From Deltaproteobacteria bacterium (GTDB taxonomy: Bacteria > Desulfobacterota > Desulfarculia > JACQYL01), in NCBI GenBank assembly GCA_016208165.1, contig JACQYL010000041.1, positions 1 through 64,000 of the forward strand: DNA of 64,000 nucleotides, in the 5' to 3' direction. Below, piece after piece: positions 4,488-39,437 of the stretch; within the stretch, counting starts at the first letter, position 1; each line of letters begins with the position of its first letter. A program made the translations under genes and the position numbers. The notes under the pieces were generated by a model. That model was not told the DNA's origin. It saw nothing but the letters and a program-made list of their open reading frames with translations, and searched no databases.

Positions 4488-4590
4488 AAAAAAAGCCGAG
4501 TTGCCTCCCTCCAGGCAACCCGGCTGTCTCTCTTGAGATCCGTGGCTTTCCGCACCCGACTCACAACGGGATTGGCTTTATCTGGCTATT
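4488..4590 (-). ncRNA. GEMM-I (cyclic-di-GMP-I type) riboswitch with overlapping terminator, copy 1
   Basis: Read on the minus strand: CCAGATAAAGCC, a CCCG/CGGG hairpin, GTGCGGAAAGCCACGG, an ATCTC/GAGA element, then GCCGGGTTGCC. These are the conserved GEMM-I aptamer blocks. The final block (4514-4524) also pairs with GCCGAGTTGCC (4495-4505), followed by seven T (minus strand), making an intrinsic terminator that excludes the aptamer's closing helix. Ligand binding should therefore favour read-through into A1 (an ON switch). Mechanism is inferred from base pairing; ligand identity (c-di-GMP or cGAMP) is not decided by sequence inspection. Confidence 0.9.
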
Positions 4591-4869
4591 CAAGTTGTCA
4601 AATAGTTACCTTGTAGTGTATCGGAATCCATTCAAGTCGTCAAGTAAAAAATGCAGTACAAAAAAAGATGGCAGAGGAAGGAAGACTCCCGGAATCCATC
4701 CTAGTTTTCCACGGCAAGATAGTCCCCTGCTTGCCATTTGAGAAATACTCCGCAGCCGGTAGGTCTAGCTGTTTGAACGCGTGGATACTTCTTGATCATC
4801 CGGCAATATCAGACGATGAAGCTAAAACCTTTGGAACACTTTCCGACTTGAGGGGCGGCATCGGGCCAA

Positions 4870-7611
4870 TCATATGGTACCCATCCCAAAATCGAATCCT
4901 TTTTTGCCCTCGTATCCACGCTTCATTTCCGCTATCCGTTCCTCTAATCCCTGTGCAATGCGGTCCTCGGGTCTTTCGCCTTTTCCCCGCCGCTCCAGTT
5001 CTCTCGGGTCAATCGGTTTGCCGAATACTACGGTGATCGGATGAAACCGTTTCAGAAACCTTCCCGGCGGCAGCGCCTGATCGGCGCCTTGTATCAACAC
5101 CGGAACCACTTTTACTGGAAAGTGATTCAGGATAAAGCCGATGCCGGACTTGAAGGCCTGCAGTTCACCTGTATGGGATCGCTGACCTTCGGGAAACCAA
5201 ACCAAGCTTCTTTCCCGCTTCAGGACTTCAGCTCCGAATGCAAGGCTGGAAAGCGCAGCCTTTTCCGGATCGATGGGGACCACTTGTCCCAGCCGGCTGA
5301 TAAAACGGTTGAACCAGTTGGCGAAAGCCGCACCCGTCCAGCCGCCCCAGTAGGTTTGCCGCAGGATCTGGAATTCAAGGGCCGCCGCAAGGGCGAACGG
5401 ATCGAGATAGCTGATATGGTTAGGGGCCATAACAAAAGGTCCTCTCAGCGGCAGGTGCTCTCTCCCTATTGTGTTCAAGCCAAAGGCGTTTTTTATAAGA
5501 AATCGGTTGAATAAGAAAAGAATTCGGACGACCATCGTCATACGAGGCCCCAACGGCTCGAGCCATCGTTCTCCCTGTCGGCTCAGAAAGCGCTCCGGAT
5601 ACTCAAAGAATGACACTTCCGGCCTGCGGGTGTCGACTGAACCGGAAGCTTCCGACACTTTTCGCAGCAGATCTCGCACGACGTCGATTTCGCCGATCGC
5701 TCTATCGTCGAGTTCCACACCGGTGCGTTGTGCAATTTCCAGCGTCAGATTCAACCAGCCCATGGAATCGATGCCCAGGTCGAGAAGAGGGCTTGCGTCC
5801 GGTGAAAGAGGCTGATCGTGATACCGGCGAGCCAACAGGTTCCAGACGTTTGTGGCCGCCCGATTGTTCAAAAGCTCACGGTCTTCGGTGGACATATCCT
5901 CGAATGATATGGGTCCGTGGATGTCCCGCCCTCCGGAATTTGCCCGATCTTTTGCCCGATCGTAGCGTTCGTGTAGCAAATGCCGCTTGACTTTCCCGAG
6001 TCGTGTTCGCTCCAGCGGCTCACGCGAAATCACAAAATCCGAAATCCGCTGATAGGAAGGTATCCGCTTCGATTCGGCTTCAATCGCCCGCTTCACCGCT
6101 TGGGGAATATCCTCAAGGCCGCGCTTGCGGATTTCGGACACCTCCGGTATGACAACCGCCGTGAGTTTTCCGTCTTCTTGAAAAATCCCGATCTCCCGAA
6201 TCATTGGACTTCGGCCGTAGGATGTTTCCACCTCCTTGGGCTGGATATTTTCTCCCCCCGGAGTGACGATGAGAGCGGAAAGGCGTCCGGTAATGAAAAG
6301 GTACCCATCATCATCAAAATAGCCGAGGTCCCCGGTCCGGAACCAGGCATCGTCGGTAAAACTTTCTTTGGTTCTTTCGGGCATGTTGTGATATCCGGAA
6401 AAAATGTTGGGACCCCTGGCCTGAATTTCTCCGGTTGGTTTCGTTTCAGTGCCGCGTTGTTGCAAGGCTTTCCCGCCGGCGGAAGAATCGATTCGGATCT
6501 CTACCCCGGATATGGGCCGGCCGACGCTCCCGATCCTGATCTTGCCGGGCGGGTCCAGGGTCAATAGGGGAGCCGTTTCGGTCAGTCCGTAACCCACGGA
6601 AACCTGCCAGCCCAGACCCTCCAATTTGCGCGCCAGCAACGGATCCAGAGCGGAGCCCCCGGAGGCCAGTATGGAAAGCTTAGGTCCGATCCTCTTGTGA
6701 AGAGGCTTGAAGAGCCATTTTCCGGCGGATAGACCGGCCCGTTCTCGTAGCCTCCCGGATAAGCCCACCAGGGAGTTGAAGAGATTTCCCGCTACGTTGC
6801 TTCGGGATCGGATCATGGACTCGATTCCTCCATACATTGCCTGATACAGACGCGGAACGCCGATGAGGATGGTCGCTTCCCCTTCCCTTACAGCTCGAAG
6901 AATTTCCGGCCCTGTCAAGGACCTGGGGAAAATGACCGGAACTCCGGAAGCCAACGGACCCAGCACTCCGATGACCAATGGGTAAGCATGGTGCAAAGGG
7001 AGCGGCAGGAGCATACGGTCGGCCTTGCCGATCAGACCGGTTTTGACTAGAGTGTCCAGTTGGAAGGTAATATTCTTGTGGGTCAGGGGCACCCCCTTGG
7101 GCGGGCCGGTGGTGCCCGAGGTGTAAAAAAGGATGGCCCGATCCGAAGCACGGGCGGAAGGGAGATCTCCCCCGTCGTCCAGCGCCGTCCGGCGCCAAAT
7201 TCGCTGGTCTTCAAGGTCGCCGTCGAGCAGAATCGTTTTTTCGTTCTCGGCGTTTATTCTTTTCAACCGTTCCATACCGCCGGCGTCGGCGAATATCCAA
7301 CGGGCGCCGCAATCCTTTAGTATTCCGGAGAGCACATCATCATCCAGTTGCGTATCCAAAGGAACCACCACTCCGCCGGCTCGGACGACGGCCAGACACG
7401 CCAGGATCCAATGAGCCCCGGCGCCGGCCAGAATCGCCACCGTATCCCCCACCGAAAGGCCGTCGTCTATCAAGCCCTGGGCCAGCGTTCGACTGGATTC
7501 CCCGAGTGTCCGGTACGTCCGCATTTCCATGCCCCCTTTTTGCACGGTCAAAACGGCCGGCTTTTCTCCGTATCCGGACAGCCCGTCGATCAAAGACATC
7601 AACGTTTCCAT
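4870..7611 (-). CDS. AMP-dependent acyl ligase / acyl carrier / PlsC acyltransferase fusion
   Basis: 913 residues in three domains. (1) Adenylating ligase, about residues 1-530: ATP-binding P-loop FYTSGTTGPPKGVPLTHKN, YGLTETAPL, and GYHNMPERTKESFTDDAWFRTGDLGY. (2) Acyl or peptidyl carrier domain, about 570-650, with attachment serine in LLDLGIDSMGWL. (3) Lysophospholipid-type acyltransferase, about 690-900, with NHISYLDPFAL (HX4D) and WFPEGQRS. The order suggests a fatty acid is activated, loaded on the built-in carrier and passed to a lysolipid, reminiscent of Aas with the domains reversed and a carrier added. It sits alone between cassettes A1 and B1 and has no riboswitch of its own. ATG 7611 is used; ATG 7599 is an alternative start. 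Confidence 0.85.
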   Translation of the reverse strand: METLMSLIDGLSGYGEKPAVLTVQKGGMEMRTYRTLGESSRTLAQGLIDDGLSVGDTVAILAGAGAHWILACLAVVRAGGVVVPLDTQLDDDVLSGILKDCGARWIFADAGGMERLKRINAENEKTILLDGDLEDQRIWRRTALDDGGDLPSARASDRAILFYTSGTTGPPKGVPLTHKNITFQLDTLVKTGLIGKADRMLLPLPLHHAYPLVIGVLGPLASGVPVIFPRSLTGPEILRAVREGEATILIGVPRLYQAMYGGIESMIRSRSNVAGNLFNSLVGLSGRLRERAGLSAGKWLFKPLHKRIGPKLSILASGGSALDPLLARKLEGLGWQVSVGYGLTETAPLLTLDPPGKIRIGSVGRPISGVEIRIDSSAGGKALQQRGTETKPTGEIQARGPNIFSGYHNMPERTKESFTDDAWFRTGDLGYFDDDGYLFITGRLSALIVTPGGENIQPKEVETSYGRSPMIREIGIFQEDGKLTAVVIPEVSEIRKRGLEDIPQAVKRAIEAESKRIPSYQRISDFVISREPLERTRLGKVKRHLLHERYDRAKDRANSGGRDIHGPISFEDMSTEDRELLNNRAATNVWNLLARRYHDQPLSPDASPLLDLGIDSMGWLNLTLEIAQRTGVELDDRAIGEIDVVRDLLRKVSEASGSVDTRRPEVSFFEYPERFLSRQGERWLEPLGPRMTMVVRILFLFNRFLIKNAFGLNTIGREHLPLRGPFVMAPNHISYLDPFALAAALEFQILRQTYWGGWTGAAFANWFNRFISRLGQVVPIDPEKAALSSLAFGAEVLKRERSLVWFPEGQRSHTGELQAFKSGIGFILNHFPVKVVPVLIQGADQALPPGRFLKRFHPITVVFGKPIDPRELERRGKGERPEDRIAQGLEERIAEMKRGYEGKKGFDFGMGTI

Positions 7612-7875
7612 GTAACGTTCACTTCCCTCGTATCGTCCAAGGCTCAGTCACAGCCATCGAACAGCGATGATCGGTAGCACTTACATCTAGATATAGACAG
7701 CTGCCCGGTACACTAGGGTAAATGCCGGTTTCGATGGAAGCATGGAAACTATTTGCTGTTGATCGTCATCCGCTCTTCAGCCTATCGCCGGCGAACAGAT
7801 GTGGACCGATGTCGAGGCCACCGGGAGACGGGATGTGGTTTCCCTTAATGAAGATGGATACGATGCAGCGGCAAC
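7612..7875. other. Intergenic stretch, no gene seen
   Basis: About 260 bases upstream of the ligase fusion and downstream of cassette B1. No convincing frame with a ribosome site was found; it presumably holds the promoter of the ligase fusion. Confidence 0.5.
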
Positions 7876-7920
7876 CGGAAAAGAACGAAGGCAGGACCCC
7901 TCGTTGGGTCCTGCCTTCGT
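7876..7920 (-). terminator. Intrinsic terminator of cassette B1
   Basis: Perfect 15-bp stem ACGAAGGCAGGACCC (7885-7899) with GGGTCCTGCCTTCGT (7906-7920), followed on the minus strand by TCTTTTCC. Same core as the terminators of the three sister cassettes. Confidence 0.85.
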
Positions 7921-7942
7921 TATAAAGGCACATTAGTAAAAC

Positions 7943-8545
7943 CTACTTTTTGGATCTTTTCTTGCGGAATCCCACCAAGCCCAGCAGACCGGAACCGAGA
8001 AGCCACAGCGCTCCGGGGATAGGTACGGCCTCGCACTCTTTCAGCTTGAAGGTCACGTCGAAGTAGCCCGTCTCCTCCCAGCCAAAGTTAGCCTCGTCCG
8101 GGCTGATGAAGGCCAGCAGCTCATAATTGAACGCTCCGTCGGTGAAGGAGAACAGGGTGGGATTGTCGAGATCCACCGCCCATCGCTTGCTGAACGAATT
8201 CCATGAGAAGTATCCGTAGGACTCTCCGGAGACGGCCTGACCGCCGGCCGAAGGCACTGAGAAATTGAACGTCAGGGTGAGAGGTATCGTGGCGTAATCA
8301 TCGAGGTTCAATGCGCTCTCGGTGTTGTACAGATAGAACAGGTTGTCGAAGTATACAGAGTCATACTCATCACAGTCGGGGCAGTAGAGATCGAAGGTTA
8401 CCGGGGACGAGGTCAATCCTCCCCCAAGAACCAATCCGGGGTCCGACGAGCCCACGGTGAGGCTATCCAGTTGAAACGTGACCGCCTGAGCCGGCAGGCT
8501 CAGCAACAATAAACCCAAAAACACCAAAACACACATTCGCTTCAT
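7943..8545 (-). CDS. Exported protein B1 with VPxPxxxWL C-terminal sorting signal
   Basis: 200 residues from ATG 8545, chosen because AAGGAGGGCGAA lies directly upstream; a longer frame to 8572 lacks this. Signal peptide MKRMCVLVFLGLLLLSLPAQA, then a secreted beta-rich domain beginning VTFQLDSLTVGSSDPGLVLG, then the sorting tail VPIPGALWLLGSGLLGLVGF and RKK. Close paralog of B2 (10295-10897), sharing long identical blocks such as NPTLFSFTDGAFNYELLA and GYFDVTFKLKECEA. Expected to be a surface or matrix protein handled by an exosortase. Expression is governed by the riboswitch at 8571-8670. Confidence 0.85.
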   Translation of the reverse strand: MKRMCVLVFLGLLLLSLPAQAVTFQLDSLTVGSSDPGLVLGGGLTSSPVTFDLYCPDCDEYDSVYFDNLFYLYNTESALNLDDYATIPLTLTFNFSVPSAGGQAVSGESYGYFSWNSFSKRWAVDLDNPTLFSFTDGAFNYELLAFISPDEANFGWEETGYFDVTFKLKECEAVPIPGALWLLGSGLLGLVGFRKKRSKK

Positions 8546-8570
8546 TTCGCCCTCCTTATGCTGAACGAAC

Positions 8571-8670
8571 AAAAAAGCCGAACTGCCTCCTACCAGGCAG
8601 CTCGGCTATCTCGTTTGAGATCCGTGGCTTTCCGCCCCCGTCTCGCAACGGGGTCGGCTTTTTCTGGTCC
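8571..8670 (-). ncRNA. GEMM-I riboswitch with overlapping terminator, copy 2
   Basis: Minus-strand blocks CCAGAAAAAGCC, a CCCCG/CGGGG hairpin, GGCGGAAAGCCACGGATCTC and GCCGAGCTGCC. The last block (8596-8606) pairs with GGCAGTTCGGC (8577-8587), which is followed by six T. Base changes between copies keep both the aptamer helix and the terminator stem (GAGCTGCC here, GGGTTGCC in copy 1), which supports both structures. Confidence 0.9.
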
Positions 8671-9266
8671 CCACCTCTCTCAAGAAGTCGGCGGGTAGTC
8701 ACTACATATAGTTGTATTGTACTCGCACCCCCCGCAAATCGTCAAAGAAAAAATGTATTACAAAATCATTTCCTTCTCAAGAAAACCGAACCTATCGAAA
8801 CTATTTGCAATCTTTCAGAGTAAAAACATGAGATTTTGATCCACGCAATTCACTTATTAGAGGATATCAAAAATGTATGAACGTTTTTAGGACATTTCTG
8901 CTTACAACTTATTCTGCTAAAATAAGAAAAGCTCCAACAGCGTTGAAGAGGTTATCCTATACCCCTGCTGACTAAACACGAGGATGGTGGTTTCCGGCAA
9001 AGGCCAAGCGGATTTTATTGAAGATAAAAAAAACCGTAAACCCGCAAGCTGGCTCGGCAGCTACGCCTAGCCCAAACGGAGCGTTGAGGCCGAGAGACTC
9101 CGGAGATGAATCGAATCCGGGCTCATTGACCCGCGGGACAAAATGTCCAACCCTACCTTGACGCACTGGACATAGGGGCGGATATCGAGGGCTTCATCCT
9201 TGATGATGGACTGCGAAAGAGTCCGGGCAGCCTTTCCGGCGCTCGTTAGTAAACCGAAGATGCGCA
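8671..9266. other. AT-rich intergenic region between cassettes B1 and A2
   Basis: About 600 bases with no convincing gene. The part next to the riboswitch (8700-8950) is clearly AT-richer than its surroundings and should contain the promoter for cassette B1. Nothing recognisable in 8950-9266. Confidence 0.5.
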
Positions 9267-9299
9267 CAAAAAAAGGCAGGACCACGATGGCCCTGCCTT
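9267..9299 (-). terminator. Intrinsic terminator of cassette A2
   Basis: AAGGCAGG (9273-9280) pairs with CCTGCCTT (9292-9299); the minus-strand tail is a run of T (A-run 9268-9274). Equivalent to the other cassette terminators. Confidence 0.8.
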
Positions 9300-9323
9300 C
9301 CACCTTAAGCTCTTTGTGAAAAC

Positions 9324-9941
9324 TCACATTCTGAACCTCTTGCGGAATCCCACCAGTCCCACCAGCCCCGCGCCCAGCAGCCAAACGGCTCCTGGAATGG
9401 GAACCACGCACTTGGTGGCCAGAGCTACGACATACTCCGGCAGGCAGTCCCCGGTGGCGCAATTCGTCATCCCTACCGGTTGATTGGAGACGAAGTCAAT
9501 AAATATCTTTTCAAAGCACGGATTCGGCTCCAGCTCAAAACTCCAAATGTAATAAAACTTCCCATATTCGTCCGAAAATCCGTAATCCAGCAATTCACCC
9601 ACATCGTTGTCGAAGCTACTCACAGCATACAGAGTGGGTGATGGCAGCGGCACCGAAATCGCAAGCAACACCCAACCGATCTTGAGAGGATTTAAGTTAT
9701 CGTAGTTGGCCGCCTCGATCTTGAAACCCGGCCCATTCGCCCACCAGGACATGTTCGGTTTAATCAGCGAATCCTCCGGGTTCGTACCCCAGTTGCTGGG
9801 ATTTCCCACCTTGTTGTTCCAGATCGCCCAGAGGGTAAGATCGCTGTCCTTCCAGTCCGGCCACGGAATGGCGTTGGCATATACCAGCGCCGGCACTAGA
9901 AAGACACAAAGAAACGTCAGTAATACGAGCCTCCTTTTCAC
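9324..9941 (-). CDS. Exported protein A2 with VPxPxxxWL C-terminal sorting signal
   Basis: 205 residues from GTG 9941 (GGGAG about 8 bases upstream). This start gives (M)KRRLVLLTFLCVFLVPALVYA, aligned with the A1 signal peptide, whereas the longer frame to 9989 adds an unrelated extension running into the riboswitch. The mature domain shares with A1 the DW...LTLWAIW start, the LEPNPCFEKIFIDF block and CVVPIPGAVWLLGAGLVGL with a basic end. Function unknown; likely a surface or matrix component anchored through an exosortase. Confidence 0.85.
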   Translation of the reverse strand: MKRRLVLLTFLCVFLVPALVYANAIPWPDWKDSDLTLWAIWNNKVGNPSNWGTNPEDSLIKPNMSWWANGPGFKIEAANYDNLNPLKIGWVLLAISVPLPSPTLYAVSSFDNDVGELLDYGFSDEYGKFYYIWSFELEPNPCFEKIFIDFVSNQPVGMTNCATGDCLPEYVVALATKCVVPIPGAVWLLGAGLVGLVGFRKRFRM

Positions 9942-9967
9942 TCTTCGCTCTCCCTTGTAACAGGCAT

Positions 9968-10067
9968 AAAAAAACCGCGTTACCCCCACTCAGGCAACCC
10001 GGCCATCTCCCTTGAGATCCGTGGCTTTCCGCACCCGCCTCACGACGGGGAAGGCTTTATCTGGACC
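9968..10067 (-). ncRNA. GEMM-I riboswitch with overlapping terminator, copy 3
   Basis: Minus-strand blocks CCAGATAAAGCC, a CCCCGTC/GGCGGG hairpin, GTGCGGAAAGCCACGGATCTC and GGCCGGGTTGCC. The last block (9993-10002) pairs, with one mismatch, to GGTAACGCGG (9975-9984) followed by seven T. Same ON-type layout as the other copies. Confidence 0.88.
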
Positions 10068-10237
10068 CTCAAATTTTCAAACATCTAAAAAATATTCTAT
10101 TCGCTACTTCGCCGGTCGTCAACAAAAAACGCAATACAAAACGGTTTACCCGCAGAAAATACGCCGTTTTGGCCTGTTTTCGTGATCTTACTTTGGAACA
10201 CACGAACGATCCTTGGACCAAGGCTTCTTCGTCATTC

Positions 10238-10268
10238 TGAAAAAGGGGCAGGACCCGAGGGTCCTGCC
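10238..10268 (-). terminator. Intrinsic terminator of cassette B2
   Basis: GGCAGGACC (10247-10255) pairs with GGTCCTGCC (10260-10268); minus-strand tail TTTTTC. Confidence 0.85.
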
Positions 10269-10294
10269 TTTTTGAGGCGTGTCGGTTAGGTTTA

Positions 10295-10897
10295 CTATTG
10301 AGACTTTTTCCTTCGGAATCCGACCAATGCCGCCAAACCGGACCCGAGGAGCCATAGCGCGCCGGGGATCGGCACGGCCTCGCACTCTTTCAGCTTGAAG
10401 GTCACGTCGAAGTAGCCCGTCTCAGTCCAACCAAAGTTGGCCTCACCGGGGCTGATCACTGCCAGCAGCTCATAATTGAACGCTCCGTCCGTAAAGGAGA
10501 ACAGGGTGGGATTGTCGAGATCCACTGCCCACCGCCGGCCGAACGGATTCAGTGAAAAGTATCCCACTGATTCCCCCGAGACAATCTGGCCGGCCGACGA
10601 AGGTAATGAGAAATTGAATGTCAGGGTCAGAGGTATCCACGCAAAGTCATCTTCCAGATTTAACGCGCTCTCGGTGTTATAGAGATAGAACAGGTCGTCG
10701 AAGTGCACGGAGTCATACCCACATTCGGGGCAGTCGAGGTTGAAGTTCACCGGGGCCCTGTAGTTCAGCCCTCCCCCGAGAACCAACCCGGGGTCCGACG
10801 AGCCTACTGTGAGGCTGTCCAGTTGAAAGGTGACGGCGTGAGCCGGCAGGCTCATCGCCAGTAAAGCAAGAAACGCCAAAACAACCACGCGCTTCAT
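10295..10897 (-). CDS. Exported protein B2 with VPxPxxxWL C-terminal sorting signal
   Basis: 200 residues from ATG 10897, preceded by GGAGGGCGGA. Signal peptide MKRVVVLAFLALLAMSLPAHA, the same secreted domain as B1 (VTFQLDSLTVGSSDPGLVLG), and tail VPIPGALWLLGSGLAALVGF plus RRKK. Differences from B1 are scattered substitutions, as expected for a duplication under protein-level constraint. Same predicted surface location and riboswitch control. Confidence 0.85.
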   Translation of the reverse strand: MKRVVVLAFLALLAMSLPAHAVTFQLDSLTVGSSDPGLVLGGGLNYRAPVNFNLDCPECGYDSVHFDDLFYLYNTESALNLEDDFAWIPLTLTFNFSLPSSAGQIVSGESVGYFSLNPFGRRWAVDLDNPTLFSFTDGAFNYELLAVISPGEANFGWTETGYFDVTFKLKECEAVPIPGALWLLGSGLAALVGFRRKKSQ

Positions 10898-10949
10898 TCC
10901 GCCCTCCTTGGTTTTGAAACGTAAGTGAACGCGCCGAGGCCCCGGCGGG

Positions 10950-11050
10950 AAAAAGCCGGCCTACCTCTCCCTCCAGGCAACCCGGCCGTCTCTATTGAGA
11001 TCCGTGGCTTTCCGCACCCGCCTCACGACGGGATCGGCTTTATCTGCCTC
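10950..11050 (-). ncRNA. GEMM-I riboswitch with overlapping terminator, copy 4
   Basis: Minus-strand blocks GCAGATAAAGCC, a CCCGTC/GGCGGG hairpin, GTGCGGAAAGCCACGGATCTC and GGCCGGGTTGCC. The last block pairs with AGGTAGGCCGGC (10955-10966, minus-strand reading) with wobble pairs and one mismatch, followed by five T. Upstream (11050-11110) the DNA turns AT-rich, consistent with a promoter. Confidence 0.87.
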
Positions 11051-34735: not shown

Positions 34736-35140
34736 ACAGAATTGTGAAACCGTCCGGCACGCTCCAGGCGCGGCGAATGCTCGGTCAAATCTCAACGATT
34801 CGTTGTGGGAAGGAAGCCACGCAAAAGAGGTCGGCCGTTTCGCCTTTTGCAGGCCGCATTTTCAAAAGCAAGACAGTTTTTCCTTTTCCGGCCCGATCTT
34901 TTCGTCGTTCATCCGAAAGGGCCAATGCATTCGTGAAGAATCGCGGATGACAAGGTTCTAAGAAGCAGCACCCGGCGCCTGAAGCACCACGCTCTAAAGG
35001 TTGAATGCGTTTGGCGATCGTCTAGTAGCTCAGCACGTTGGATTGCGCGTATCTCCCTGCCCAAGCTTTTCGAATGGATGCAAGGCTGTGAAGCATCCCC
35101 AAGGGACGGACATTCATTCGGTGGATTTTTTTCGTAGTCC
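34736..35140. other. Intergenic region, no gene seen
   Basis: About 400 bases between the PEP-synthase-like gene and the candidate RNA. Short frames here have no ribosome site or recognisable product. Around 35022-35080 there is a faint tRNA-like string (TAGCTCAG, TTCGAAT) that does not fold as a tRNA. Confidence 0.4.
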
Positions 35141-35142
35141 CC

Positions 35143-35171
35143 TTGTGTCATGAGTACAAAGGACTTAAATT
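35143..35171 (+). promoter_or_regulatory. Candidate sigma-70 promoter for the structured RNA
   Basis: TTGTGT (35143-35148), 17-bp spacer, TAAATT (35166-35171). Moderate match only, but correctly placed for a transcript ending at the terminator near 35522. Confidence 0.4.
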
Positions 35172-35177
35172 ATGATT

Positions 35178-35525
35178 GAAAGCACCGATATAAGTAACAA
35201 CGGACTGTAGAGCCTCCGGCTTCAACACAAAAAATGAAAACTAAGCGCGGCCGATGGGCCCGCAAAGTTAAGATTAGAAATAAGGAAGCCCGGGAAGGCA
35301 CAGTCCGAGTATCTGGGGTGTACGTGCATCTTCTCTCCGAGCGGTTATCATCTTGGCGGTGAAGTTACTTTGCACGAGAGGATAACGGCACTACCGGAAC
35401 TCATAAGGCAGAGGACCTGTTGGAGAGTTCACCTGTGATCCTAACGCGAGAACTAGTCAACAAACCCTAACCCGGCCACGGAGGACCCGTAGCGAGCGTC
35501 ACTGACTGCGGGTCCGCTTTTTTGC
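35178..35525 (+). ncRNA. Candidate structured noncoding RNA, about 350 nt, unknown class
   Basis: No plausible protein frame, but dense pairing potential. CGGACTGT (35201-35208) is exactly complementary to ACAGTCCG (35300-35307), enclosing a junction with small hairpins (AGCC-TCC-GGCT; GCGGCC/GGGCCCGC). Downstream, CTCTC/GAGAG and GTTATC/GATAAC (35344-35349 with 35381-35386) cross each other, a possible pseudoknot, followed by GTTGGA/TCCTAAC. The 3' end is a strong intrinsic terminator. It does not match RNase P, tmRNA, SRP, 6S RNA or group I/II introns by the motifs I know. Boundaries approximate. Confidence 0.5.
35485..35522 (+). terminator. Intrinsic terminator of the candidate RNA
   Basis: GGACCCGTAG, a 13-base loop, CTGCGGGTCC (10-bp stem with one wobble) and then GC followed by six T. 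Confidence 0.85.
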
Positions 35526-35721
35526 ACCGCTCCGGGGAAGGCGGTGACTCTCGTGGGCCGATCTTCCCTGGGATCCGATTAGCCCCTACAATTCCGGCCC
35601 GCACCCCGAATCCGGTCTTTCCCGGCTCCAAAAGCCCATCTCTGGTCGCGCCTCAAAGCTATGCTATCGGTTTTTTCAATCGATTTTTCTTTTATTTATC
35701 GGGAATATCCTTACCATGCCC

Positions 35722-35750
35722 TTGTCCGGACGGGAGTTGTCGCATAGAAT
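35722..35750 (+). promoter_or_regulatory. Candidate sigma-70 promoter of the selenopeptide cluster
   Basis: TTGTCC (35722-35727), 17-bp spacer, TAGAAT (35745-35750), about 90 bases before the peptide start codon. Confidence 0.5.
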
Positions 35751-35841
35751 AGTATTTAAGGCGGCTCGGGGAGGTTCTCTTTTTTTCAGGTAACCGGGAA
35801 CGGGGTCGAGTATCGTCCGTCACCTTTTGAAGGGAGTCTGT

Positions 35842-36093
35842 ATGGACAAGCAAAAACTGAAAAAGATTCTGGCGGGGTTCAGCATCGCTGGACTTTTGGC
35901 AGGCGCCGGATGTGCGGGTGCGCCATCCGGTTCCTCATCCTGAACCGGTTCCAAATCCGGTGCAGGTGGCACCGTAATCGAAGAAAAAAAGCCGGCCGAC
36001 ACCTCGGGCAGCGGTTCCCAATCCGGTGCAGGAAGCGTTGAAGAAAAGGAAGAGGAGAAACCCGGTACCAGTTCCTGAACGGGTTCCAAGTAG
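35842..36093 (+). CDS. sbtA: Selenocysteine-containing RiPP precursor peptide (selenobiotic SbtA type), two in-frame TGA codons
   Basis: 83 codons from ATG 35842 (GGGAG upstream) to TAG 36091. TGA at 35941-35943 (codon 34) and 36076-36078 (codon 79) are read as selenocysteine (U). Leader MDKQKLKKILAGFSIAGLLAG is the type preceding radical-SAM-modified Cys-rich peptides. The core has three imperfect repeats: SSUTGSKSGAGGT, SGSGSQSGAGSV and SSUTGSK-stop, separated by acidic/lysine linkers. A SECIS-like hairpin starts 15 bases after each TGA. The radical SAM maturase gene follows. The family of predicted selenopeptides next to a radical SAM enzyme is known from comparative genomics; the modification and product are unknown. 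Normal gene finders would miss this gene. Beyond the TAG the repeat still continues (GAGST) to TAA 36109. Confidence 0.85.
35941..35973 (+). promoter_or_regulatory. SECIS-like element 1
   Basis: TGA 35941-35943, then 15 bases, then stem GGTGC (35959-35963), loop AGGTG, stem GCACC (35969-35973). The apical loop has the GGU expected of bacterial SECIS and lies about 20 bases from the UGA, within the usual range. An alternative stem ACCGG/CCGGT (35944-35961) starts right after the TGA and would compete with it. Confidence 0.7.
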
Positions 36094-36108
36094 GGTGCAG
36101 GTAGCACC
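36076..36108 (+). promoter_or_regulatory. SECIS-like element 2, spanning the stop codon
   Basis: TGA 36076-36078, 15 bases, stem GGTGC (36094-36098), loop AGGTA, stem GCACC (36104-36108). Identical geometry to element 1. The TAG stop (36091-36093) lies between the UGA and the hairpin, so the hairpin is outside the coding sequence yet conserved. Confidence 0.7.
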
Positions 36109-36288
36109 TAAGAGCAAAGACTCAGGTTATACTGGAGCGTTTCAAGCATGGGCATCGTCCGTGCGGTTGGCGCTGAATCGAGCTTCCGGGCGAGGAGTGA
36201 CCTAATACCCATTCTTCAGGTCTGCGCCGGCCTGGGCGCCAAGTTGGTCGCATGACTGTAAAACCGTTCTTATTCCCCGAGGGATGAT

Positions 36289-37932
36289 ATGGAGCCTCCA
36301 TCGCCCCACAACGACAAAAAGAGACCGCCCGAGCCCCCGATCCTTTCTGAGCGGTTTCAGAAGATCTTTCCCAAGTGCTGTTCCATCATGGGTCCCCACT
36401 CCCTGGACCGCGTGCTGAACGAGCACACGGCGCAAGCCGGTCCGGAATTCTTCCCGGATTTGCTGGAAACCCATGGAAGCCGGCCCGGTCTGCCGGCGTT
36501 TCTGGCGGACCTGGCCCGCGTGGAATGGGCCTTTCATCAAGCTCGAACCTACACGAACGAGTTCGATACGGATGTCGATGCATTAGAGCTCAACCCGACG
36601 GTTCAAGTCATCGAAACGGCCTGGACCGATCTCGATGCCCTGTTCCACGAAACGGGCGCCCCCCCCTCCATTTCCCCGCGGCCGGGCAAGACACTGGTGC
36701 TCGTCTGGAAGGACTTCAGCCGGGGAGAACCCCGGATCGGAACCGCATCGGACGAAGATCTGCTGGCCCTGAAGATGGTGTTGGAACAAACGGATCCGGC
36801 GAACACGGCCGCGGCGGAGAACGTCCCTGTGGGTGTGCCGGATAGAGCTCTGAAGCGCGCGGTTCGTCAAGGTATCCTGCTCGCTCCCCGGTCCGCTATC
36901 CGAAGGGACCCGGCCTGTTTTCCCATCAGCGACCAATGGGACGAACGATTTCTGGCCTCCCCCGTGTTTACCTTGCAGTGGCATGTCACCCAGGCCTGCG
37001 ATCTGCACTGTAAACACTGCTACGATCGGAGCGATCGATCACCCATGAACCTGGAGCGGGCTGTTGCCGTGTTGGACGAGTTGCGAGTCTTTTGCAAAGA
37101 GCGGCACGTGAGCGGACAGGTTACCTTTACCGGCGGCAATCCCCTCCTCTTCCCGAAATTTACAGAGTTGTACCGGGCGGCGTCCGAACGCGGATTTGTT
37201 ATCGCCCTTGCGGGCAATGTCGCCGCCAGGGAACGGCTGGAAGAACTGAAAGCTATTCAAAAGCCGGTTTTCTACCAGGTGAGCCTGGAGGGGTTGGAGG
37301 AACACAACGACCGGATCCGCGGTTCGGGATATTTCCGCAGGGTCATGGATTTCCTCGACCTGCTCCGGGAGATGGACATCTATTCCATGGTGATGCTTAC
37401 CCTCACCAAAGACAACATGGATCAAGTCCTGCCTCTGGCCGAACGCCTTCGCGGACGAACGAACGCTTTCAATTTCAATCGTCTCTCCATGGTGGGCGAA
37501 GGTGCGCAACTTGAGCTTCCCGATCGCGAAGCCTACGCTGAATTCCTGGAATCCTATGTGGAAGCGTCGGAACAAAACCCCATCCTTGGATTGAAGGATA
37601 ACCTGATCAATATCCTGTATCACCGCAAACAGAAAACGCTGTTTGGCGGATGCGCCGGCTACGGATGTGGAGCCGCCTTCAACTTTGTCACCCTGCTTCC
37701 GGACGGTGAAGTCCACGCCTGCCGCAAGTTCCCTTCCCTCATCGGCAATCTGTTCGAACAAAGCCTCGCTGAAATCTACGACTCGGAACCCGCCCGCCGC
37801 TATCGTGCGGGTTCCGAAGGTTGCCGCTCCTGCGCCATCCGCCCGGTCTGCGGCGGCTGTCCGGCCATTGCATACAGCCGGCGCCTCGACGTGTTCAACG
37901 ATCGAGATCCCTACTGTTTTATAGACTCATAG
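36289..37932 (+). CDS. sbtM: Radical SAM/SPASM peptide maturase (selenobiotic SbtM type)
   Basis: 547 residues, ATG 36289 after GAGGGATG. The N-terminal 220 residues are a family-specific extension, possibly for peptide recognition. The radical SAM core starts with WHVTQACDLHCKHCYDRSD, i.e. CX3CX2C binding the catalytic 4Fe-4S cluster. A C-terminal SPASM-like domain is cysteine-rich: CAGYGCG, ACRKFPSLIGN, CRSCAIRPVCGGCP and a last Cys in DPYCF, enough for auxiliary clusters. It lies 196 bases after the selenopeptide and is the expected modifying enzyme, acting on the Sec/Gly/Ser repeats (inference). The reaction, such as a thioether-like selenoether, cannot be read from sequence. Confidence 0.88.
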   Translation: MEPPSPHNDKKRPPEPPILSERFQKIFPKCCSIMGPHSLDRVLNEHTAQAGPEFFPDLLETHGSRPGLPAFLADLARVEWAFHQARTYTNEFDTDVDALELNPTVQVIETAWTDLDALFHETGAPPSISPRPGKTLVLVWKDFSRGEPRIGTASDEDLLALKMVLEQTDPANTAAAENVPVGVPDRALKRAVRQGILLAPRSAIRRDPACFPISDQWDERFLASPVFTLQWHVTQACDLHCKHCYDRSDRSPMNLERAVAVLDELRVFCKERHVSGQVTFTGGNPLLFPKFTELYRAASERGFVIALAGNVAARERLEELKAIQKPVFYQVSLEGLEEHNDRIRGSGYFRRVMDFLDLLREMDIYSMVMLTLTKDNMDQVLPLAERLRGRTNAFNFNRLSMVGEGAQLELPDREAYAEFLESYVEASEQNPILGLKDNLINILYHRKQKTLFGGCAGYGCGAAFNFVTLLPDGEVHACRKFPSLIGNLFEQSLAEIYDSEPARRYRAGSEGCRSCAIRPVCGGCPAIAYSRRLDVFNDRDPYCFIDS

Positions 37933-38071: not shown

Positions 38072-38740
38072 ATGTCCAATGCCGACGAGTTGCTTAAAGA
38101 ACTGAGAACGTTGAACGAGCCTTTCGAAAAAAGGTTTCTCGATCATCACTACGTGGAAGCCATTGAATCGGGTCAACTCAAGGAGAGCGCCCTGAGCGCA
38201 TTCGCCGCGGAACAGTACCATATCATTACCAGCGATCTGCGCAGCATCGCCTTCCTCTATTCAAGAGAGACATCATCCACCGGGCAACAGTTCTTCTGGG
38301 ACGTGTTGCAGGGAGAAAAAGAGGCTCTGAAAAACCTGATCTATTTTTCAGCGGCTCTCCACCTGTCCGATTGGGACATGGAGATGCACGAGCCGGCCGC
38401 GGGAGCGCAGGCTTACAAAGCGTTTATGGCCTGGCTGGCCGTGTTCGGAAGTTCGGCCGAAGTGGCCGCCGCCCTGATTGTAAACCTGCCGGCCTGGGCC
38501 GCCAATTGCGCCCGGATGAGCAGGGGCCTGAAGATCCATTACGGACTGAAGGATGCGGATGTGGCCTTTTTCGATCTTTTTAGTTCGCCGTCTTCCGACT
38601 TCCAGCGCATGGCTGTTGCGGTGATGGACGAGGGACTGCGCCGGGGAGTGGAGATCCGAGCCGTCCGGCGCTCGGCAAGGCTCGTTCAGGAGTACGAACT
38701 CATGTTCTGGGACACGCTGTACGAGCATTCGCGAGCATAA
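38072..38740 (+). CDS. TenA/PqqC heme-oxygenase-fold protein, copy 1
   Basis: 222 residues from ATG 38072 (AAAGGAG upstream; the frame also extends to 38027). All-helical TenA/PqqC-like fold: FLDHHYVEAIESGQLKESAL, FAAEQYHIITSDLRS, WDVLQGEKEALKNLIYF, VMDEGLRRG. Thiaminase-type cysteine motifs are not evident, and the His/Asp pattern of diiron members of this fold is incomplete, so enzymatic activity is uncertain. Located 139 bases after the maturase and 31 before a second member, it probably belongs to the peptide cluster. Confidence 0.75.
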   Translation: MSNADELLKELRTLNEPFEKRFLDHHYVEAIESGQLKESALSAFAAEQYHIITSDLRSIAFLYSRETSSTGQQFFWDVLQGEKEALKNLIYFSAALHLSDWDMEMHEPAAGAQAYKAFMAWLAVFGSSAEVAAALIVNLPAWAANCARMSRGLKIHYGLKDADVAFFDLFSSPSSDFQRMAVAVMDEGLRRGVEIRAVRRSARLVQEYELMFWDTLYEHSRA

Positions 38741-38771
38741 ACATCTCGAATCGGCGCCATGCGAGGAAACC

Positions 38772-39437
38772 ATGAGTTTCAGTGAACGACTGCGCGGAAG
38801 CGCCCATCACATCTGGGAAGCCAATTACCGCCACCCCTTTGTCCAGGCCATAGGAAAAGGAGATCTTGCGGAAAAGGCGTTCCGCTTTTATCTGGCCCAG
38901 GATTATGTATATTTAAAAGAGTACTGTCGTTTCCTCGCCCTGGCCGCTGCGAAGAGTCCGGATCTCGAATCCATGGGCCTGTTTTCCCACCTGCTGGAAG
39001 TTACCTTGAAGGTCGAGATGGATCTGCACCGGTCCATATGCGCGGAGTTCGGCATGTCCCCGTCGGATCTCGAAAGGGTCCGGCCCGCTCCCATCTGCCA
39101 GGCCTACACCGGTTACCTGCTGAAGACAGCCTACGAAGGCGGTTTTCTGGACCTCATGACGGCGTTTCTTCCCTGCGCCTGGGGGTATGTCGAGATCGGC
39201 CAAAGGCTGAAGGAACAGGGCCTACCCGACCACCCCCATTACGCCAAATGGATCGAAACCTATGCTTCGGTAGAATTCCTCGAACTGAACGAGGAACTGA
39301 AGAAACTGCTGGACCGGCACGCCGGAGGAATTTCCGAGCAGCAGGCCGACCGGCTGCAGGAAATCTTCGATTTTTCGAGTCGCTGGGAGGGCCTGTTCTG
39401 GGACATGGCCTGGATACAGAGCGACTGGCCTGATTGA
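38772..39437 (+). CDS. TenA-family protein, copy 2
   Basis: 221 residues, ATG 38772 with GAGGAAACC upstream. Closer to classical TenA than copy 1: HPFVQAIGKGDLAEKAFRFYLAQDYVYLKEYCRFLALAAAKSP, CAWGYVEIGQRL and W...YASVEFLELNEELKKLLD. TenA proteins hydrolyse aminopyrimidines for thiamine salvage; no thi genes are nearby. With a radical SAM peptide system upstream it may instead process the modified peptide, as PqqC does for PQQ. That role is inference. Confidence 0.8.
   Translation: MSFSERLRGSAHHIWEANYRHPFVQAIGKGDLAEKAFRFYLAQDYVYLKEYCRFLALAAAKSPDLESMGLFSHLLEVTLKVEMDLHRSICAEFGMSPSDLERVRPAPICQAYTGYLLKTAYEGGFLDLMTAFLPCAWGYVEIGQRLKEQGLPDHPHYAKWIETYASVEFLELNEELKKLLDRHAGGISEQQADRLQEIFDFSSRWEGLFWDMAWIQSDWPD

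Follow-up and report, generated by a model that had tools for sequence, protein, structure and literature searches.

The analyzed stretch of 64,000 nt (the window) harbors a short precursor gene, sbtA, followed by sbtM, which encodes a radical SAM/SPASM maturase. The positions of both genes and of the features within them are given in Table 1.

Table 1. Features of the sbtA-sbtM locus (positions in the window)
Feature	Position	Strand	Basis
Shine-Dalgarno-like AAGGGAG, 5 nt upstream of the sbtA ATG; good ribosome site	35830..35836	+	sequence
sbtA, codons 34 and 79 predicted to be Sec; TAG stop 36091-36093	35842..36093	+	translation; TIGR04081
sbtA leader, residues 1-25, covered by TIGR04081; hydrophobic, signal-peptide-like, GAGC close to the end	35842..35916	+	profile match
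sbtA repeat 1, UGA-bearing	35927..35973	+	repeat comparison
sbtA UGA codon 34 (predicted Sec)	35941..35943	+	translation
SECIS-like hairpin 1, CGGUGC-AGGUG-GCACCG	35958..35974	+	20 nt UGA-to-loop
sbtA repeat 2, without UGA	35993..36039	+	repeat comparison
sbtA repeat 3, UGA-bearing	36062..36108	+	repeat comparison
sbtA UGA codon 79 (predicted Sec)	36076..36078	+	translation
sbtA UAG stop; its G is base 1 of hairpin 2	36091..36093	+	translation
SECIS-like hairpin 2, GGGUGC-AGGUA-GCACCU, beyond the coding sequence	36093..36109	+	20 nt UGA-to-loop
sbtM, 547-aa radical SAM/SPASM maturase with an RRE-like (beta3-alpha3) unit predicted at the N-terminus	36289..37932	+	TIGR04082, Pfam, AlphaFold

With TGA translated as selenocysteine (U), sbtA has 83 codons before the TAG and encodes an 83-aa precursor, MDKQKLKKILAGFSIAGLLAGAGCAGAPSGSSSUTGSKSGAGGTVIEEKKPADTSGSGSQSGAGSVEEKEEEKPGTSSUTGSK. 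The gene contains three imperfect 47-nt repeats in register (100, 64, and 81% identity). TGA occupies the equivalent place in repeats 1 and 3, and GGC is found there instead in repeat 2. The Sec residues of the core thus lie in S/G-rich repeats (SSSUTGSK and TSSUTGSK), and the relatives are similar. A first-pass annotation of this DNA had described the strong ribosome site, the three repeats, and the two in-frame TGA codons at equivalent repeat positions, and all of these were recovered. It had also predicted a premature end by standard gene calling, and a standard caller does halt after codon 33. Its end of the gene at 36111 (TAA 36109-36111) has to be corrected, as this frame passes the in-frame TAG. 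Pyrrolysine at the TAG was rejected: the best PylS score in the genome was 23.6 bits against a curated cut-off of 178. Since no PylS of the genome exceeded the cut-off and the relatives end at the same place, we consider the TAG to be the true stop.

The sbtA leader matched TIGR04081 (SbtA family thio(seleno)oxazole RiPP precursor) with an E value of 5.3e-11 and 42 bits (cut-off 30.5), and residues 1-33 alone reached 45.6 bits. SbtM matched TIGR04082 with 741 bits (5.8e-223, cut-off 350) and was the sole match above the cut-off in the whole genome. Pfam matches to Radical_SAM and SPASM were found as well. The leader typical of radical-SAM-modified peptides, the neighboring CX3CX2C radical SAM/SPASM gene, and the assignment to the SbtA/SbtM class, for which a profile search had been suggested in the first-pass annotation, are therefore supported by curated models. 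The description of the gene as "unannotatable" did not hold: NCBIfam has models for the class, and the selenoprotein table of a 2026 review includes TIGR04081, under the name "selenobacteriocin", among the predicted families and assigns it two Sec (PMC13188914). The chemistry had been regarded as not established, but PMC11002830, with reference to Lewis et al. 2021, reports thiooxazole formation by an SbtM. The locus is clearly a fresh member of an already named family, and this type of system is already known. It shares with the known SbtA/SbtM system the leader and maturase models, the gene order, the core Sec-UGA with SECIS, and the presence of two Sec, and differs only in details, namely the length of 83 aa, the UGA-less repeat, and the position of the last SECIS past the stop codon.

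In SbtM, the CX3CX2C motif is formed by C237, C241, and C244, and the SPASM cysteines are also present. C237, C241, C244, C455, C460, C478, C512, C515, C521, C524, and C543 were invariant in 35 SbtM homologs. The AlphaFold model (pLDDT 88) gave CteB, SuiB, and SkfB as top matches among solved folds. Like SbtM, these maturases of ranthipeptides and sactipeptides are radical SAM and SPASM RiPP enzymes. They form thioethers, however, and SbtM scores far under the cut-offs of their families. Ahead of the radical SAM barrel, residues 106-194 of the model build a unit of three strands and three helices, which may be a leader-binding RRE. Since a single-sequence fold of the N-terminal part (pLDDT 34) was of no use, this suggestion comes from the aligned full-length model only.

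Both UGA codons of sbtA are followed by a 6-bp hairpin at a distance of exactly 20 nt from the UGA to the loop, with the loops AGGUG and AGGUA. This agrees with a published model for SECIS elements (PMC13188914), which we applied as a hairpin 16-37 nt past the UGA with a G within the first two loop positions. Repeat 2 retains a degenerate remnant of the hairpin with wobble pairs and the loop AGGAA. When the two UGAs were considered one at a time, 1.2-1.3% of codon shuffles had an equally good hairpin at the expected place; among synonymous shuffles, the values were 2.6 and 3.9%. Fold stability was unremarkable compared to shuffles (z -0.4 and -1.0). The case for SECIS elements in the window thus rests on position, loop, and conservation, not on fold energy. 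A loose SECIS-type DNA pattern was left out of the evidence, because its genome-wide count was close to the control.

Decisive for the putative SECIS hairpins was the comparison of sequences across relatives. In 80 loci, 83% of the UGAs (n = 136) were followed by a SECIS-like hairpin, compared to 15% of the Cys codons in equivalent repeats (n = 48) and 10% of codon-shuffled controls. With the register fixed (20-nt spacing, 5-nt loop), 55 of 133 UGAs had fully paired arms, while re-dealing the arms among the sequences gave a mean of 13.3 and a maximum of 20. Each of the five pairs in this alignment was represented by two to four pair types. We conclude that the two UGA codons of sbtA almost certainly encode selenocysteine.

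Together with 29 further loci, the comparison set comprised 82 distinct SbtA precursors. At least two UGAs with hairpins were present in 62 of them, two or three UGAs being usual. Five precursors had Cys throughout and no UGA, and several combined Cys and Sec. Cys versions of the repeats, which the first-pass annotation had proposed to look for at the TGA positions, occurred in relatives L031, L066, L082, L092, and L138; homologs with real stops at both TGA positions, which it had named as evidence against the class, did not occur. Sampling of 395 genomes from the phylum of the window gave 39 with SbtM; the cultured Malonomonas rubra and Desulfospira joergensenii both have the sbtA-sbtM pair. 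A search inside the window's own GTDB family returned the genome itself as the single hit. Only sbtA and sbtM recurred across the SbtM loci, and no transporter, protease, or immunity gene was conserved next to them. At 25 loci (e.g., L050, L060, L067, L074, L086, and L093), several of them on short contigs, SbtM was present and no SbtA leader was recognized in the DNA covered. These loci may have a divergent precursor or one that is encoded elsewhere.

According to the recent review, bacterial SECIS elements are placed within coding regions (PMC13188914). The last SECIS-like hairpin of the SbtA family is not entirely inside the coding region. For 45 UGAs with a stop-type codon not more than 9 codons away, the hairpin extended across or past that codon. 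UAG overlapped the 5' arm of the hairpin in 21 of these 45 cases, typically as AUAGUGC...GCACUAU. In 12 of the 45, the next stop-type codon was a UGA two or three codons on, and some of these second UGAs could be Sec themselves. In L048, L065, L068, L070, L072, L089, and others, a Sec-UGA with hairpin was followed 2-3 codons later by a UGA that is probably the stop. If a stop UGA lies this close to a Sec-UGA in some members, the cell must read two neighboring UGAs differently. The Nitrospirota precursors L037, L039, L052, and L055 had a recognizable SECIS only for the last UGA and none for the upstream UGAs, and in L044 only the first UGA lacked a recognizable SECIS, the later UGAs having one. 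In L028 and L101, the UGAs at codons 40 and 46 appear to share a single hairpin, 35 and 17 nt away. On the basis of these patterns we consider it reasonably likely that, in the SbtA family, the last Sec is inserted by a SECIS straddling or following the stop codon, often with the UAG paired in the stem, that some stops are UGAs 2-3 codons after a Sec-UGA, and that upstream UGAs in Nitrospirota have no recognizable SECIS. The position of the last SECIS across or after the stop codon is a less documented aspect of the family.

Decoding of the UGAs as Sec depends on the genes for selenocysteine synthesis and insertion, for which the first-pass annotation had suggested a search. The tRNA-Sec (selC; 77 bits, confirmed by ARAGORN), selB (384 bits), and selD (362 bits) were found in the genome; absence of the machinery, which would have spoken against the class, was thus not observed. 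The result for selA was less straightforward. The gene (L017:1319-2592, contig 48) matched with 536 bits over its C-terminal part, and in the assembly it is interrupted: an N-terminal piece of 65 codons and a C-terminal piece of 355 codons lie in different frames, with the change near 1510-1525, and about 40 residues near the N-terminus are missing compared to Aquifex SelA. No second selA copy was found. The interruption may be an assembly fault or a real lesion. In case of a real lesion, the Sec system would have been lost, the UGAs of sbtA would be real stops, and a fossil sbtA would yield a 33-residue leader fragment. This appears very unlikely to us, although the interruption and the lack of a second copy would fit. 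The 355-codon part of selA has an uninterrupted frame and closely resembles Aquifex SelA, and one small gap in an assembly of 142 contigs is more easily explained by an assembly fault. Furthermore, selB, selD, the tRNA-Sec, both hairpins, and SbtM are intact, and the genome encodes two formate dehydrogenases with an in-frame TGA at the active site (ARLUHSS and ARIUHSA). In the formate dehydrogenase with RLUHSS, the TGA is followed by a strong hairpin with the AGGU motif in the loop, as in sbtA. We prefer the reading as an assembly fault, because all selA-dependent parts are intact.

Taking all data together, we propose with a probability of about 0.86 that sbtA and sbtM form a selenopeptide (RiPP) cassette of two genes, with Sec decoding and formation of a selenooxazole, followed by probable export and, most likely, a metal- or redox-active product. 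Decoding and the role of the repeats are deduced from sequence evidence and the modification from a characterized homolog, while export and function are inferred. The hairpin 20 nt past codon 34 would recruit SelB with Sec-tRNA so that the UGA is read as Sec, and codon 79 would be decoded likewise by the second hairpin, which extends from the stop codon into the 3' flank. Termination at the UAG would then give the 83-aa precursor with two Sec. Each UGA would be served by its own SECIS, and the UGA-less middle repeat would keep only the decayed hairpin. If the Sec-UGA recoding of 30-40% in E. coli (PMC4513850) also held here, we estimate that about 10-15% of the products would be full-length after two serial UGAs, the rest ending before Sec.

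SbtM would bind the leader, probably by its N-terminal domain, and its 5'-deoxyadenosyl radical would abstract a hydrogen from the Sec residue; a four-hydrogen oxidation would then close Sec onto the adjacent backbone to give a selenooxazole. In the work described in PMC11002830, Cys and Sec peptides lost four hydrogens through the action of an SbtM, and the Cys product was identified as a thiooxazole by NMR. Formation of another link or heterocycle from the Sec peptide, such as a selenoether or an oxazolone-selenoamide, is unlikely in our view. The thioether-forming enzymes CteB and SuiB are the nearest solved folds, and thiooxazole and oxazolone-thioamide are hard to distinguish (PMC12538549, PMC12668002), but the score of SbtM for its own curated family is about 5 times that for the next maturase family, and the modified peptide of an SbtM system showed the absorbance at about 305 nm that is common to thiooxazoles.

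Export and leader removal of the putative selenooxazole peptide would probably be carried out by general machinery, since the leader is signal-peptide-like (lipoprotein-like in the window and in many relatives) and the conserved neighborhood includes no transporter or protease dedicated to the peptide. SbtA leaders are basic and then hydrophobic, with a median peak hydropathy of 1.87. A lipobox-like pattern was present in 34 of 83 leaders, including that of the window, and an AxA-like site in another 29 of 83, both as raw counts of loose patterns. Because of this looseness, we regard the use of general machinery for export as no more than moderately likely. As a working hypothesis, the product would most likely be an exported metal- or redox-active peptide, because an SbtM yields thiooxazole and copper binding is described for thiooxazole peptides from a different class of enzymes (PMC12668002). 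These peptides, the bufferins and captophorins, are Cys-derived thiooxazole metallophores and share the heterocycle reported for an SbtM product, but they are made by MNIO (multinuclear nonheme iron enzyme) proteins from non-SbtA precursors and with Cys instead of Sec. The name "selenobacteriocin" in the table of PMC13188914 would rather suggest a bacteriocin as the mature product. We consider this improbable, as neither an immunity gene nor a transporter or peptidase is conserved near sbtM and the leader is signal-like.

Natural products that contain selenium are very rare. The SbtA family appears to yield peptides with several Sec in Desulfobacterota, Nitrospirota, and others, from precursors that are cut off by standard gene calling. 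The repeats with or without their own UGA and SECIS represent a natural test set for the action of SelB at multiple UGAs in a short message, including a SECIS that overlaps the stop codon.

Upstream of sbtA, 1.1 kb (34740-35840) contained no convincing gene and had a strong terminator-like hairpin at about 35480-35525. This region is present in a single copy in the genome and gave no Rfam match above chance and no phage match. Two adjacent TenA/PQQC-family genes lie downstream of sbtM (38075-39434), one a good thiaminase II and the other divergent. They were rejected as operon partners, since the pair was not conserved beside sbtM in relatives. A defense system was also considered and rejected, as only weak viperin-like radical SAM matches were found. 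On the minus strand of the window, four c-di-GMP-I riboswitches are located in a stretch of 6.5 kb (4511-11048).
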